DNA of 64,000 nucleotides from an uncultured Pelagibacteraceae bacterium (lineage in GTDB: Bacteria > Pseudomonadota > Alphaproteobacteria > Pelagibacterales > Pelagibacteraceae), in the NCBI GenBank assembly GCA_902578255.1, contig CACHCH010000001.1, positions 1 through 64,000 on the forward strand, in the 5' to 3' direction. The notes under the pieces are model-generated. The model was not told the DNA's origin and did not search any database. It saw only the letters and a program-made list of their open reading frames with translations. The translations under genes were made by a program, and so were the position numbers. Of this stretch, positions 34,285-40,225 are shown piece after piece; within the stretch, counting starts at the first letter, position 1; every line of letters starts with the position of its first letter.

Positions 34285-35691
34285 TTAATATTTAAAAAGA
34301 AATTTTTTAGCTATCAATAACAATGATAAAAATTCAACCCTACCTATAATCATAAAAAAAATGAGAAAATATTTAGTTAAAAAATGTAAGTTATGAAAGT
34401 CAAAATCACTAATTCCATAAGCAAAAGAATTGACCGTATTCATTAAAGTTAGTACCGCCAGTTTAAATGAACTTTCAAACTCAATATTACTCAATGATAA
34501 TAAAACTGTTAATGAGAAAAGAGAAATAACAAATATTAAAACAGTTAAGAAATATTTATTAATATCAGTTGTGTCAAAATTAATTTTAGAAAAAATAAGC
34601 TTATTCATAAACACTTTATTAGGTTTACTAAAAGAAAGAATTTGATTGATTGAATATTTAGAAAGAGAATAAATTTTTAAGAACCTTAATCCTGAGCTTG
34701 TTGAGAAAAAAGAACCCCCAACTATTACTAATATTAAATAGATTAAGTTTAAGTTTTTTTGTTCTACTTCTAGAGAAATACCAATATTTGAAATACTACT
34801 TACTAAATTTAAGAAGTTGAATGAAAAATTTTTATCATAACTAAAAAATATAAAAAAAATACTTACCAATAATAAAAAATACAAAAATAAATGAATATCT
34901 TCATAAAAAAAATTAAGATTTTTCTTTCGTAAAAAAATTAAGTTATAAGTAAAAAAAATACTAAAGAAAGATATCAACATTAAAAGTGAAAAAACAATTA
35001 TTTGAGTGTTGGTCAATAATATTGTTGAAAGCTCATTATCGGGTAAAAAGCCACCAGAAGAAATTACTGTCATTGCAAGATTAAGAGAGTTAAATATTCT
35101 GATACCAAATATATTTAAAACAATAAAAATAAAAACAGTTAAGCTGGAATATAAAAGAAAAATTTTAATAGTTTGTTTTAAAATCTCAGAGCTACTGAAA
35201 GATAAAAAATTTGTTAATGATTTTTTTAAACTTTCATCATAAATATCTATAAGAAAAATTATCGAAAATAAAAAGTATAATCCACCAATCCATTGTATTG
35301 ATGATCTCCATAATATTAAGCCTTGATCGATATGTTTGATATTGTCAAAAATAGTAAAACCAGTTGAGGTAAATCCTGATACTGACTCAAAAATTGAGTT
35401 TAAAAAAGTTAAATTATAAATACTTAAATAAAATGGAATACATAATACTAAAGGTATTAATATATAACCAAGTAGTACTGTTAAAATCTTCTCAAAAATT
35501 GATGGTTTTTTTAAATTTGATTTTAAGTAATAAAAAAAAATTCCTATTAGACCTGAAATTATTAAGCTTACGTAATAAGTGTTAAGATTAAGATATAAGT
35601 TAAAATAATAAGAATAAATTATATTAAAAAAAGAAAATATAGAGACAAGTATAAAAAAAAAACTTAAATATTTAACTCTGAATAACGACAT
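34285..35691 (-). CDS. trkH: Potassium uptake membrane subunit TrkH
   Basis: 468 residues with about ten to twelve hydrophobic segments arranged as repeated M1-P-M2 pore units. Filter-type loops include SVSGFTSTGFTIFD, TVISSGGFLPD and GSFFSTSSGLRFLK. It is the K+-translocating subunit and is gated by the NAD-binding regulator TrkA, encoded immediately upstream (4-base gap). The sequence is rich in Phe/Ile/Leu/Ser with strong low-GC drift, yet the pore loops remain. Confidence 0.88.
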   Translation of the reverse strand: MSLFRVKYLSFFFILVSIFSFFNIIYSYYFNLYLNLNTYYVSLIISGLIGIFFYYLKSNLKKPSIFEKILTVLLGYILIPLVLCIPFYLSIYNLTFLNSIFESVSGFTSTGFTIFDNIKHIDQGLILWRSSIQWIGGLYFLFSIIFLIDIYDESLKKSLTNFLSFSSSEILKQTIKIFLLYSSLTVFIFIVLNIFGIRIFNSLNLAMTVISSGGFLPDNELSTILLTNTQIIVFSLLMLISFFSIFFTYNLIFLRKKNLNFFYEDIHLFLYFLLLVSIFFIFFSYDKNFSFNFLNLVSSISNIGISLEVEQKNLNLIYLILVIVGGSFFSTSSGLRFLKIYSLSKYSINQILSFSKPNKVFMNKLIFSKINFDTTDINKYFLTVLIFVISLFSLTVLLSLSNIEFESSFKLAVLTLMNTVNSFAYGISDFDFHNLHFLTKYFLIFFMIIGRVEFLSLLLIAKKFLFKY

Positions 35692-35695
35692 TTAA

Positions 35696-37087
35696 TTAGA
35701 TTGAACTAATTCTAAAAATATTCTCAACTACTGAAATAGAGTCTTTTTTTGCCAAAAATACAACTTTATCCTCTTTTAAAAAAACAAAATCAGATCGGGG
35801 AATTATTATCTTGTCTCCTCTTAAAACTGCACCAATTCTAATCTCGTCTGGTAGATTTGAATTCTTCAATTCTTTATTAATTAACTCCGATGTCTCAATA
35901 ATTTCAGCTTCAATTACTTCATACTCACCATTCATAATTGTGTATGCTGTTTCTATGGTACCTTTATGGACATGTTTTAATATACTAGAAACAGTATTCA
36001 TTCTTGGATCTATTAGATCATCAATTTTTAGAGAGTCTTGCAATAGAGAATAGTTAGGTTTATTCACTAATGCCATCGTTCTTTTATCTTCAATTTCCTT
36101 TTCATCTTTAGCGAATTTTTCAACAAGAACACTTACCATCAGATTGTCCTCATCATCATTTGTTAAAGCAAGGACCGTTTCAGCTTCCTCTAAATTTGCC
36201 TCAGCTAACACTTCTTCATCTAAACCGTTTCCATTGATTACTATGGTATTATTTAATTCTGATGCAAGGTATTCAGCTCGCTCTTTGTCTTTTTCAACAA
36301 TTTTAACTCTTGCAGCATCTAATGTTTCCTCAATATTTTTTGCAAGATTAAAACCAATGTTACCACCACCAACAATAAGAATTTTTTTAGATACCTTTTC
36401 AGTATGACCAAAAGCTTCTAAGGTTTCAGCTGTTTGGGAAGAATTAATAATTACGTAAATTTTATCATTTTTTTTAATTTCATCCTCTTTTTTTGGAATT
36501 AAAAATTTATCATCCCTAATAATTCCAATTACATTTGCATCCAAATTAGGATATTTTTTTGTTAAATCTTTAAGCTTAATATTGATTAAACTACAGCCAT
36601 CATTTATAAAAATTTCTAGCAATCGTATTTTATTCTCTGCAAAAGGTACACTATCTAAGGCTCCGGGTGCTTCTAACTTTCTTTGAATTGATTTTGCAAT
36701 TTCAAGTTCTGGCGAAATAATTACATCAATTGGTAAATTTTCTTTATTGTAAACTGTTGTAAACTTAGGATTTAAATAATCCTGCGATCTTATTCTTGCA
36801 ATTTTTTTTGGAATATTAAATATGGAAAAAGCTATTTGACATATAACCATATTAATTTCATCATTTCTGGTAACAGCGATGATCATATCTGTTTCAGCTG
36901 CATTCGCTTTTTCAAGTATAGTTGGATAAGTTGCCTTGCCAACAATTGCTTTTACATCTAAAGCGTCATCTATTTTTTGAATATCTTCACTAGATGTATC
37001 AATTACAGTTATAGAATGACCTTGTTCACTTAATTGTTTGGCAATGGTGAAACCCACTCTTCCAGCGCCACAAATAATAATGTTCAT
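35696..37087 (-). CDS. trkA: Trk potassium uptake regulator TrkA
   Basis: 463 residues with two RCK halves. Each begins with a Rossmann NAD-binding motif: IIICGAGRVGFTIAKQL at the N-terminus and ILIVGGGNIGFNLAKNI near residue 235. Each is followed by a TrkA-C domain. It binds the cytoplasmic face of TrkH. Its start overlaps the last base of ntrX, so ntrY-ntrX-trkA-trkH form one transcript, the order common in alphaproteobacteria. Confidence 0.94.
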   Translation of the reverse strand: MNIIICGAGRVGFTIAKQLSEQGHSITVIDTSSEDIQKIDDALDVKAIVGKATYPTILEKANAAETDMIIAVTRNDEINMVICQIAFSIFNIPKKIARIRSQDYLNPKFTTVYNKENLPIDVIISPELEIAKSIQRKLEAPGALDSVPFAENKIRLLEIFINDGCSLINIKLKDLTKKYPNLDANVIGIIRDDKFLIPKKEDEIKKNDKIYVIINSSQTAETLEAFGHTEKVSKKILIVGGGNIGFNLAKNIEETLDAARVKIVEKDKERAEYLASELNNTIVINGNGLDEEVLAEANLEEAETVLALTNDDEDNLMVSVLVEKFAKDEKEIEDKRTMALVNKPNYSLLQDSLKIDDLIDPRMNTVSSILKHVHKGTIETAYTIMNGEYEVIEAEIIETSELINKELKNSNLPDEIRIGAVLRGDKIIIPRSDFVFLKEDKVVFLAKKDSISVVENIFRISSI

Positions 37088-38442
37088 TAATTAAATTCTT
37101 TAATTCCTAAGCCTTTGAGTTTTCTATGTAATGCGCTTCGTTCCATACCAACAAAGTTGGCTGTTTTTGAAATATTTCCATTAAATTTTTTTAATTGGAT
37201 AGTTAAATACTCTTTTTCAAACTTTTCTCTAGCCTCTTTTAATGGCACAGATAGGCTATTTTCAGCAATTTGATCATCAAAATTATTATTTTTCAAAGAC
37301 TCCTTAATTATATTTGAAATTTTATCTTTTGTATCTGGTTGTAATATGGCAATTCTTTCAATTAAATTTCTAAGCTCTCTAACATTACCCTGCCAATTAT
37401 GATTTAAAATATAACTATTGTTCTCATCGATATTTAATTCTTTGATATTATAATTCTCAGATATTTTTTTTGAAAAATAATTTATTAAAAGTGGAATATC
37501 AGAAATTCTTTGGCTTAAAGGCTCAACATTAATTTCAAATACATTTATTCTGTGAAAAAGATCTTCTCTAAAGTTGCCAATCTCAATTTCCTTTTTTAAA
37601 TCCTTACTAGACGAACACATTAATCTTACATCGACTGTAACATCACTACTACCATTGACACGTTTAAATTTTTGATCAATTAAAACACGAAGTATTTTTG
37701 ATTGTATATCTAAAGGGATTTCAGAAACTTGATCAATTAAAAGTATACCACTGTTGGCTTTTTCCAAAGCTCCATATGAAATTGATCCATTTTCTTTTTC
37801 TTCACCAAATAATTCAAGCTCATATTTGTCAGAGTCTAACAAGGCTCCATTTAATATTACAAAAGGATTTTTATTTCTTTTTGAATTTTTATGAATTTTT
37901 CTAGCGATCAACTCTTTGCCTGATCCAGAAGGACCATTTATAAATACTCTACTTTCAGTAATTGATATTTTTTTAATCTGGTCCTTGATATTAGTTATAT
38001 TTTTACTGTTTCCTATAATCTCATAAGATGAGAAAAGTTTACTTTCATATTCTTTATTTTCTTTTTTAAGATTATAATTTTCTACAGCTCTTTTAACAAA
38101 ATTTAGTAACCTTTCACGATCAAATGGTTTTTCAATAAATTCAAAAGCACCATTGTGTAAAGATTTAATTGCCATTTCTATATTAGCATGACCAGAGATT
38201 ATAATTACAGGAATATCTTTGTTTTTTGACTTTATATGAGATAAAAGCTCTATTCCGTCATTATCTCCTTTATCTAACTTAACATCTAAAATAGCAACAT
38301 CAGGTAGTTTTTTATCTATCTCGGACAAGGCTTGGTTATAATTTGCGGCTAGTCTGGTTTTATAACCTGCGTCCAGAATAAGTTCATTAATGATATTTCT
38401 GATATCAGCATTATCATCAACAATTAGAATTTCACTACTCAT
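37087..38442 (-). CDS. ntrX: NtrX-type response regulator with degenerate AAA+ domain
   Basis: 451 residues. Receiver domain (1-120) with phospho-acceptor D53 (ILDVKLDKGDND), AAA+ domain (about 140-375), and Fis-type HTH at the C-terminus (NISKTANFVGMERSALHRKL). Walker A is intact (GPSGSGKE, 170-177). The GAFTGA loop that contacts sigma-54 is missing: after ELFGEEKE comes NGSISYGALEKA. Walker B reads LLIDQV, so the catalytic Glu is Gln (Q238, codon CAA at 37731-37729). It is therefore unlikely to activate sigma-54 by ATP hydrolysis. Paired with NtrY immediately upstream. Confidence 0.93.
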   Translation of the reverse strand: MSSEILIVDDNADIRNIINELILDAGYKTRLAANYNQALSEIDKKLPDVAILDVKLDKGDNDGIELLSHIKSKNKDIPVIIISGHANIEMAIKSLHNGAFEFIEKPFDRERLLNFVKRAVENYNLKKENKEYESKLFSSYEIIGNSKNITNIKDQIKKISITESRVFINGPSGSGKELIARKIHKNSKRNKNPFVILNGALLDSDKYELELFGEEKENGSISYGALEKANSGILLIDQVSEIPLDIQSKILRVLIDQKFKRVNGSSDVTVDVRLMCSSSKDLKKEIEIGNFREDLFHRINVFEINVEPLSQRISDIPLLINYFSKKISENYNIKELNIDENNSYILNHNWQGNVRELRNLIERIAILQPDTKDKISNIIKESLKNNNFDDQIAENSLSVPLKEAREKFEKEYLTIQLKKFNGNISKTANFVGMERSALHRKLKGLGIKEFN

Positions 38443-38443
38443 G

Positions 38444-40225
38444 TTATTTTATAAAATTAATATTAATTTGGGCTCCATCATCTTTTGGGATAAATTCAAT
38501 TTTACCATTATGATCATTTATAATTTTATTTACTATTGATAATCCTAAACCAGTACCATTTTTTTTTGTAGTAAAGTAGGGATTTAAAATATCTTTAATA
38601 TTTACAGAGAGTTTTCCAAATCCAATTCCATTATCAACAATTACTAGTTTTATGTGACCATTATTTTCATTAAGTTCAATAGTAATTTTTTTGCTGAAAT
38701 TACTGTCATTTTCAGCTTTTTGCTGAATACTTTCTATCGAATTTTTGATTAAATTTAAAAATACCCTGCTTATTTGTTCTTTATCACTATTTAAAATTAT
38801 TTTTTCTGAATTAGTGGATAAATTTATCTCAATAGAATTATCTAATTTTTTTAATAATTTAACATTCTCTTTCAGTAAAAGGACTAGGTTATTTTCTCTC
38901 AGGGTAGGCTTTGGCATTCTTGCAAAATCAGAAAATTCATTAACTAAGTTGCCAATTTGTTTTATTTGGTTATTAATTATTTTTAAATTATCTTTAAAAT
39001 TTTCTGAGTCTTTTTCCTTTAATAAATCAGAATATTTTTCTCTTAAACTATCAATTGTTAATTGAATTGGTGTAAGAGGATTTCTAATTTCATGAGCTAG
39101 TTTTCTCGCTAAACTTCCCCAAGCCTCATGCCTTTCATTTATAATAAGCTTTTCCTGCTGAGTCTTAAGCCGATCAATCATTAAATTGAAATTTTTATTC
39201 AATATCTCTAAGTCTTTATCTGTTTTTACCTCTGGAACCTTTGCATCAAAATTTCCTTCACCAATAGAGGTTGACGCATAAATTAAATTATTAATAGATC
39301 TAAAAAATCTTGATGAGAACCTGATAGCTATTGATATAGATACAAATAATAAAACACTCACAACAATAATATAAATAATTGCAAAAGATATCTTTATCCC
39401 AGTGCTTTTTTCTTCTACAGTATAATAGAAATTGATTGCCTCCTGTGACTCATTTAAATAATTTGAAATTTCCTTATCCAAATATTTAATTACATAAAGA
39501 AATCTATCATCAAAATTTTGTAGTCGCATAATTGCTGCAGAAATATTTTCTGGCGCATTGATTATTTTTAAAGGTCTGTCATCATCCAAAACTAGATTAA
39601 GAGCTTTATCAACCGGAGGCACAAAAAATTTATTATTTTTTATTGTAGAAAATAAAAGTTTTTTATTTACATCAATGATATGAATTTCATCAACATCTCT
39701 TATTATTTTTTGAGTGTTTAAAAAACGTTTATATTCTTTAATGTCATCATTTAAAAATTTTTTACTCTTATTTGTATCAAAAGCTATAAGCACTATATCA
39801 GATTGAATTTTGTTTCTGATTTCATTTACATAGCTTCTGGCTAATTCATAAGAATTATTAACTACTGTTGTAACTTTTTTGTCAAAATACTTTTCTAAAG
39901 CAAAAGAAAATAAAAATAATGAAAAAATTGAAATTAAAACTGAGGGTATTAAAGTAAATAATGCAAAATACGTAATATATTTTTTATTAGATTTTAGCCC
40001 ATCTTTATCAATATCGTTTTTAATTGCTTTTTGGATTTCTGAAAAAATAAATAAGAAAAGGGAAATTAATAAAATGATATTAAGTATTAATAAATACTGT
40101 AAATTCTGATCATTTAATTCAATAAAGCCTTTATCGATGAAAGTTAAAAAGGTTAAAAAACCTATCGATAATGTGATAATAAATAATATTATTAAGTATA
40201 TGTTTTTTTTAATAAATTCTGACAT
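38444..40225 (-). CDS. ntrY: NtrY-type sensor histidine kinase
   Basis: 593 residues. N-terminal membrane helices (about 10-110), an extracytoplasmic region (about 120-275), a further membrane helix (IIYIIVVSVLLFVSISIAI), HAMP linker, HisKA domain with phospho-His in ARKLAHEIRNPLTPIQL, and a HATPase domain with NLIKNSIESI, IVDNGIGFG and GTGLGLSIV. In alphaproteobacteria NtrYX has been tied to nitrogen, redox and envelope responses; the signal here is unknown. It is the first gene of the ntrYX-trkAH set, 1 base before ntrX, and divergent from ispDF by 24 bases. Confidence 0.92.
   Translation of the reverse strand: MSEFIKKNIYLIILFIITLSIGFLTFLTFIDKGFIELNDQNLQYLLILNIILLISLFLFIFSEIQKAIKNDIDKDGLKSNKKYITYFALFTLIPSVLISIFSLFLFSFALEKYFDKKVTTVVNNSYELARSYVNEIRNKIQSDIVLIAFDTNKSKKFLNDDIKEYKRFLNTQKIIRDVDEIHIIDVNKKLLFSTIKNNKFFVPPVDKALNLVLDDDRPLKIINAPENISAAIMRLQNFDDRFLYVIKYLDKEISNYLNESQEAINFYYTVEEKSTGIKISFAIIYIIVVSVLLFVSISIAIRFSSRFFRSINNLIYASTSIGEGNFDAKVPEVKTDKDLEILNKNFNLMIDRLKTQQEKLIINERHEAWGSLARKLAHEIRNPLTPIQLTIDSLREKYSDLLKEKDSENFKDNLKIINNQIKQIGNLVNEFSDFARMPKPTLRENNLVLLLKENVKLLKKLDNSIEINLSTNSEKIILNSDKEQISRVFLNLIKNSIESIQQKAENDSNFSKKITIELNENNGHIKLVIVDNGIGFGKLSVNIKDILNPYFTTKKNGTGLGLSIVNKIINDHNGKIEFIPKDDGAQININFIK

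Follow-up and report, generated by a model that had tools for sequence, protein, structure and literature searches.

NtrX of Brucella abortus (PDB entries 5m7n, 5m7p and 5m7o), crystallized with adenosine triphosphate (ATP; 5m7n) and with adenosine diphosphate (ADP; 5m7p), is the closest solved relative of the NtrX encoded in a 64,000-nucleotide stretch of DNA from an uncultured Pelagibacteraceae bacterium of the SAR11 group (contig CACHCH010000001.1, positions 1 to 64,000; hereafter the window). Both proteins present the same domain order, share 42-45% identity, lack the GAFTGA loop that contacts sigma-54 and carry Fis-type helix-turn-helix (HTH) domains that closely resemble each other, but Brucella NtrX keeps the catalytic glutamate (Glu) of Walker B (GILYLDEV), whereas the window protein reads LLIDQV, with glutamine (Gln) at residue 238 after the aspartate (Asp) D237. 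Brucella NtrX was reportedly found, in a 2017 J Mol Biol paper, to bind ATP and to have no ATPase activity in spite of this Glu. The same Glu to Gln replacement was made in the laboratory in PspF (E108Q; 4qnm, 4qnr, 4qos), for which ATP-bound structures such as 4qnr exist, and PMC3419264 gives a maximal rate (Vmax) of 0.07 versus 39.51 per min and a Michaelis constant (Km) of 100 versus 250 µM; the swap abolishes hydrolysis in PspF and leaves ATP binding in place. NtrC1 in 3m0e is likewise a laboratory mutant of the Walker B Glu; as with PspF E108Q, it derives from a sigma-54 activator, unlike the natural change in SAR11. Two further systems are described in PMC10274813. The NtrC of Rhodobacter capsulatus lacks GAFTGA, acts at sigma-70 promoters and requires ATP binding rather than hydrolysis; it is an NtrC, not an NtrX, and its likeness to the window protein concerns features other than Walker B. 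In Caulobacter, a sigma-54-bearing genus, GAFTGA is missing from NtrC and, as already published, from NtrX.

The Walker B Glu to Gln mutation used in the laboratory occurs naturally in a clade of SAR11 NtrX proteins that includes the window protein. No published report of this substitution in SAR11 NtrX was found in a literature search to which subscription journals were mostly closed. The window gene and its elements are as follows (aa, amino acids).

37087-38442, minus strand: ntrX, 451 aa, with receiver, AAA+ and Fis-type HTH domains in this order (open reading frame (ORF), Pfam, NCBIfam and PDB match).
38095-38430, minus strand: receiver domain, aa 5-116, with D9, D10, D53 and K105 (Pfam Response_reg).
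37912-37935, minus strand: Walker A GPSGSGKE, aa 170-177, intact (sequence and alignment).
37849-37851, minus strand: N198, aligned with the asparagine (Asn) of NCAS in 3dzd (alignment).
37771-37815, minus strand: shortened L1 region ELFGEEKENGSISYG, aa 210-224, without GAFTGA (sequence and alignment).
37729-37746, minus strand: Walker B ILLIDQ, aa 233-238, with the Q238 codon at 37729-37731 (sequence).
37549-37569, minus strand: RxDxxxR arginine motif REDLFHR, aa 292-298, intact (alignment; motif definition from PMC3419264).
37114-37230, minus strand: Fis-type HTH, aa 405-443 (Pfam HTH_8; close match to 5m7n).

The original prediction had placed ntrX at 37087-38442 and had described a missing GAFTGA, a preserved Walker A and a Walker B with Q238, and all of this agrees with the window sequence. 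The 451-aa ORF is encoded on the minus strand; the plus strand of the same interval contains many stops.

NtrX-type proteins were read from 347 of 349 loci, the other two being 10-base placeholders, and 345 of them were aligned with the window protein, two being the window's own copy. In a sample taken evenly across the genus of the window, NtrX was found in 89 of 131 genomes, with Glu at residue 238 in 50, Gln in 36 and histidine (His) in three. Over all loci, the genus presented 117 Gln, 4 His and 55 Glu, other genera of the family 26 Glu and 22 Asn, a second family of the order 18 Glu, and other Alphaproteobacteria 85 Glu, 9 Asn, 5 Asp, 2 His, 1 Gln and 1 serine; these counts hold some genomes twice (e.g., L003 and L170), and frequencies are therefore taken from the even genus sample. 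The fragments L286-L288 were counted in residue tallies and frequencies and excluded from the trees, the six-position comparison and the substitution-rate estimates, and, in one set of 60 genomes with NtrX, the broken copy of G501 was left out. Fixation of Gln throughout SAR11, which the original prediction had proposed to check by alignment, was thus ruled out, given that 50 of the 89 NtrX-bearing genomes retain Glu. Glu in other SAR11 NtrX proteins had also been expected to expose Q238 as a strain-specific change or an error; Glu is indeed kept there, but a quirk or sequencing error was excluded by Gln in 117 other loci of the genus (a number that counts some genomes twice), the nearest of which come from single-cell or metagenome assemblies at 96-98% identity, and by the sharing of the residue across a whole clade. 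Asn was present in 22/22 loci (L321-L341, L064) of a second clade, drawn from four further SAR11 genera and comprising every NtrX-bearing sampled member of g5, g225, g227 (one genome) and g231.

Most of the sampled genomes are incomplete, and the absence of NtrX from 42/131 is mostly no evidence of loss. Among the 20 genus genomes with 90% or more completeness and no more than 5% contamination, NtrX was not found in three (G029, G351 and G368, 90-95% complete, no match at an expectation value (E) of 1e-60), which are possible real losses. Additionally, L336 contains an ntrX with an in-frame stop, and at G501:C3:33751-35113 the gene is in two pieces with stops; each is a single SAR11 assembly, and either an assembly error or a pseudogene may be involved.

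Columns 198 and 238 were removed before a maximum-likelihood tree of 81 rows was built; in this tree, the 30 Gln/His rows all formed one clade (support 100/99), within which the His rows formed a clade of their own (99/94), and the Asn rows constituted a separate clade (96/87). Three changes at residue 238 suffice for the SAR11 rows of this tree; owing to long branches among outgroup and sister-family rows, its deep branching is less sure than these three clades. Therefore, Gln marks one well-supported SAR11 clade and not the whole of SAR11, and the Glu to Gln change looks old, common to an entire sub-group and conserved. A preference for amides as evidence of selection was considered and dropped, since only two independent SAR11 events are involved.

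The ATP site is preserved around the substituted residue. Among the 121 Gln/His loci, gaps aside, K176 was kept in 120/120, N198 in 120/120, R292 and R298 in 121/121 and D237 in 119/121; D53 of the receiver domain was present in the 120/120 loci covering that position. In the Asn clade, K176, D237, R292 and R298 were each kept in 22/22. Outside the order, all six positions checked were preserved in 4/18 non-Glu loci versus 69/85 Glu loci. N198 is presumably the counterpart of PspF N64, the so-called glutamate switch. The ratio of non-synonymous to synonymous substitution rates (dN/dS; Nei-Gojobori, pooled disjoint close pairs) of the AAA+ domain was 0.0507 in Gln/His rows (60 pairs) versus 0.0521 in Glu rows (24 pairs), which argues against decay of the domain in the Gln/His clade; the receiver and DNA-binding domains presented lower values than the AAA+ domain. 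At codon 238, a tree of 343 rows revealed 15 codon changes among Gln/His rows, only one of which altered the amino acid (Q to H), compared with four and none among Asn rows and nine and none among Glu rows of the genus. Tested against a neutral codon at kappa 3, the Gln pattern gave P 4e-8 and the Asn pattern P 0.0016. Judging from these sequences, Gln itself was conserved after the change and was apparently held by selection.

Variation at the same site was also observed elsewhere. Three Glu-type members of the genus (L023, L266, L292) carry R292H in the motif GNFHEDLFYR, perhaps another route to the loss of hydrolysis. In Alphaproteobacteria with genomes of 0.7-1.1 Mb, the Walker A lysine (Lys) was lost in L123, L129 and L130 (family f46), and the Walker A glycines were altered in L114, L117 and L122 (family f88).

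The original prediction also held that rpoN is absent, and this was supported: no PF04552 match was found in the window's genome (82.24% complete), and none above the cut-off in any of the 61 genomes of the order, including one genus-mate that is 100% complete. Two further genus-mates, 99% complete, gave no match either, and a single sub-threshold match (19.8 bits against a cut-off of 22.8) was obtained in G047; the control search detected PF04552 in Caulobacter vibrioides. Similarly, strain HTCC1062 is described in PMC13198564 as having only sigma-70 and sigma-32. The further claim that the missing GAFTGA reflects the missing rpoN did not survive. A GAFTGA-like word occurred in only 1 of the 345 aligned loci (L136, 32.6% identical to the window protein; the L1 loop lies outside the fragment L288), and of the 103 loci outside the order, 72 came from rpoN-bearing genomes, 71 of which lacked the loop (rpoN status was assigned by hand to each locus from the list of rpoN-positive genomes, with L048, matched only at E 1.2e-4, set aside). 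Loss of the loop is therefore independent of the loss of sigma-54, and its explanation as a consequence of rpoN loss in SAR11 was ruled out, the loop being equally missing in rpoN-positive Alphaproteobacteria. The absence of GAFTGA is a trait of alphaproteobacterial NtrX, present beside an intact rpoN, and would most simply date from before the SAR11 order. NtrC served as a control, sampled from 40 hand-picked alphaproteobacterial genomes (37 matches, 30 taken), and the motif pattern, readable in 26 of the 30, comprised GAFTGA or GSFTGA plus the Walker B Glu in 26/26. A non-Glu state tracking rpoN loss in other Alphaproteobacteria was also examined and set aside, with 11/72 rpoN-positive versus 7/30 rpoN-negative loci (Fisher P 0.39, uncorrected for kinship). 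In L112, L113 and L118-L121, from some Alphaproteobacteria, the L1 stretch before Walker B is almost wholly deleted, with four residues between aligned positions 210 and 224.

Taken from sequence and from analogy with the described systems, Gln-type NtrX is probably a DNA-binding response regulator of the sigma-70 type, able to bind ATP and unable to hydrolyze it. The adjacent kinase NtrY would phosphorylate NtrX at D53, and NtrX would bind DNA by its Fis-type HTH and act on sigma-70-type RNA polymerase, a mode proposed because the genome gave no sigma-54 match and the protein has no GAFTGA loop. In strain HTCC1062, production of the NtrX protein is shown by a phosphosite reported in PMC13198564. 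The AAA+ domain would bind ATP via the intact Walker A, D237, N198 and the arginine motif, hydrolysis would be impossible because the catalytic Glu is Gln, and ATP, bound but unhydrolyzed, would thus act as a ligand setting conformation or oligomeric state rather than as fuel. The GxxxxGK of Walker A and the Walker B Asp expected of an ATP-binding AAA+ protein are both present, whereas three attributes of a sigma-54 activator are missing, namely the GAFTGA loop, RpoN in the genome and the DE of Walker B (here DQ). Indirect support for this account comes from the residues retained around the lost Glu (Walker A, the arginines and the Asp of Walker B), from the constraint on the AAA+ domain and from the behavior of PspF E108Q. 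An ATP-binding, non-hydrolyzing DNA-binding regulator had been the original interpretation, and it stays the best one, although its tie between GAFTGA and rpoN and its extension of Gln to SAR11 as a rule are both lost.

Several observations weigh against this account. D237 is replaced by Glu in 2/121 Gln/His loci (L198, L252), and in the Asn clade N198 is kept in 15/22 rows and replaced by Asp in the other 7, with a higher AAA+ dN/dS of 0.080 (6 pairs). The even genus sample alone gives four codon changes, one of them changing the amino acid, so that the Gln codon test is weak there, its strength coming from the larger, similarity-picked set of loci. The 343-row FastTree requires four changes at residue 238 among SAR11 rows, not three. 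A conserved Gln could serve folding rather than ATP, and Walker A has been lost from NtrX in some other reduced alphaproteobacterial genomes, which implies that not every NtrX requires ATP binding. Moreover, according to PMC10274813, Caulobacter NtrC, which lacks GAFTGA, needs both the Walker A Lys and the Walker B Asp in vivo.

Neutral drift is the strongest of the competing explanations, though unlikely: loss of GAFTGA would have made ATP hydrolysis useless and freed the catalytic Glu, with Gln, His and Asn meaningless in themselves. The near-universal absence of the loop from NtrX and the pairing of GAFTGA or GSFTGA with Glu in all readable NtrC controls are what drift would predict, as are the 13 Glu/non-Glu changes over the whole 343-row tree, which point to repeated catalytic loss, and the replacement of Glu outside the order by Asn, Asp, His, Gln and serine. 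R292H in the three Glu-type genomes also suggests that hydrolysis is expendable, the corresponding PspF R162H having a Vmax of 0.08 according to PMC3419264. However, Gln is held about as firmly as Glu is, the AAA+ dN/dS did not rise after the change, and the amide outcome of both SAR11 losses, being two events, is little proof of anything; drift accounts for the tolerance of the change and not for the conserved Gln codon or the domain's steady constraint. A combination of the two is likely: hydrolysis became dispensable, and the non-hydrolyzing, ATP-bound form was then kept.

Clearly less probable is a role for the AAA+ domain as a structural dimerization scaffold, its ATP site being maintained for fold stability or for another nucleotide, as is reported for VpsR with cyclic di-guanosine monophosphate (c-di-GMP). 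VpsR, which lacks GAFTGA according to PMC3162934, was among the structural matches of the window protein, under an entry title that mentions c-di-GMP binding, and L123, L129 and L130 retain an NtrX from which the Walker A Lys has gone; but in both the Gln/His clade and the Asn clade there is little or no variation at the Walker A Lys, the two arginines or the Asp of Walker B, as would be expected if ATP were bound between subunits, and Brucella NtrX was crystallized with both ATP and ADP. Hydrolysis retained through another residue, with D198 opposite N238 shifting a carboxylate across the site in part of the Asn clade, is very improbable, for although D198 occurs in 7/22 Asn-clade rows and 6/18 other non-Glu rows and in 0/184 Glu rows (one gap), this covariation rests on few events and was rejected as not significant by independent pairs, and the window's own clade, which keeps N198 throughout, has regained no carboxylate.

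A bolder extension of ligand-like ATP binding is that two SAR11 lineages independently turned NtrX into a permanent nucleotide-sensing switch, in which an amide (Gln or Asn) would lock ATP in place and NtrX would read the ATP/ADP balance together with the NtrY signal. This reading is rather unlikely; if true, the Glu-type sister lineages, which make up 50/89 of the genus sample, would respond differently, amounting to a heritable regulatory split within the genus. SAR11 bacteria possess four two-component systems according to PMC13198564, and with so few regulators a changed mechanism in one of them matters to sensing in the ocean. The clade also offers a natural counterpart of a mutation routinely made in AAA+ proteins, and its near Glu-type relatives can serve as controls. 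It is relevant to the question of why a full ATP site is retained in enhancer-binding proteins deprived of sigma-54 contact, where the ligand rather than hydrolysis may be what is kept, and the label 'sigma-54-dependent' is misleading for such proteins in genomes without rpoN.

The window gene is NtrX by its top model, although below the model's cut-off, by its nearest solved structure and by its gene neighborhood. NF051870 (NtrX) was the best of 106 NCBIfam models, matching at full length with E 2.6e-163 and 544.1 bits against an equivalog cut-off of 600; across 289 genomes of the class, this model matched in 253 at E 1e-100 and exceeded its cut-off in 199. Pfam assigned Response_reg to aa 5-116, Sigma54_activat to 142-304, an AAA lid to 311-386 and the Fis-type HTH to 405-443, and a single PF00158 protein, NtrX itself, was found in the window's genome (1.0 Mb). 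The closest PDB match was 5m7n (E 1.3e-119), and Pfam, AlphaFold2 and Foldseek all indicate the domain order and fold of NtrX. The AlphaFold2 model presented a mean predicted local distance difference test score (pLDDT) of 86.6 and a predicted template modeling score (pTM) of 0.58, its domain arrangement being unreliable. Foldseek ranks 1-6 were all B. abortus NtrX, and VIA gave Z 32.8-33.9 with a root-mean-square deviation (rmsd) of 13.9 over 424-433 residues, with a differing domain arrangement. The AAA+ part superposed on those of PspF and NtrC1, Walker B mutants included: Z 27.4 and rmsd 3.0 over 241 residues for 4qnr, the ATP-bound PspF E108Q, and Z 28.7 and rmsd 2.3 over 241 residues for 3m0e.

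In Alphaproteobacteria, ntrY lies directly upstream of ntrX, and trkA lies downstream; the window presents the same arrangement.

38444-40225, minus strand: ntrY, sensor histidine kinase, directly upstream of ntrX (Pfam NtrY_N, HAMP, HisKA and HATPase_c).
35696-37087, minus strand: trkA, overlapping the end of ntrX by 1 base (ORF, Pfam and NCBIfam).
34285-35691, minus strand: trkH-like potassium transporter (TIGR00933, E 1.6e-25, under the cut-off; Pfam TrkH barely above its cut-off).

The window NtrY gave no Pfam PAS match at E 0.001, and its sensing part may differ from that of the haem-PAS NtrY described for Brucella in PMC9937504. In the comparison of gene neighborhoods, a group labeled as other Alphaproteobacteria was set aside, having wrongly taken in 22 loci of the genus (L228-L249). 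Among loci of at least 2400 bases, NtrY and TrkA were both matched by tblastn within the ntrX locus in 92/93 Gln/His loci (grouped by locus number and including the window's own copy), 17/17 Glu-type loci and 17/18 loci of the sister family.

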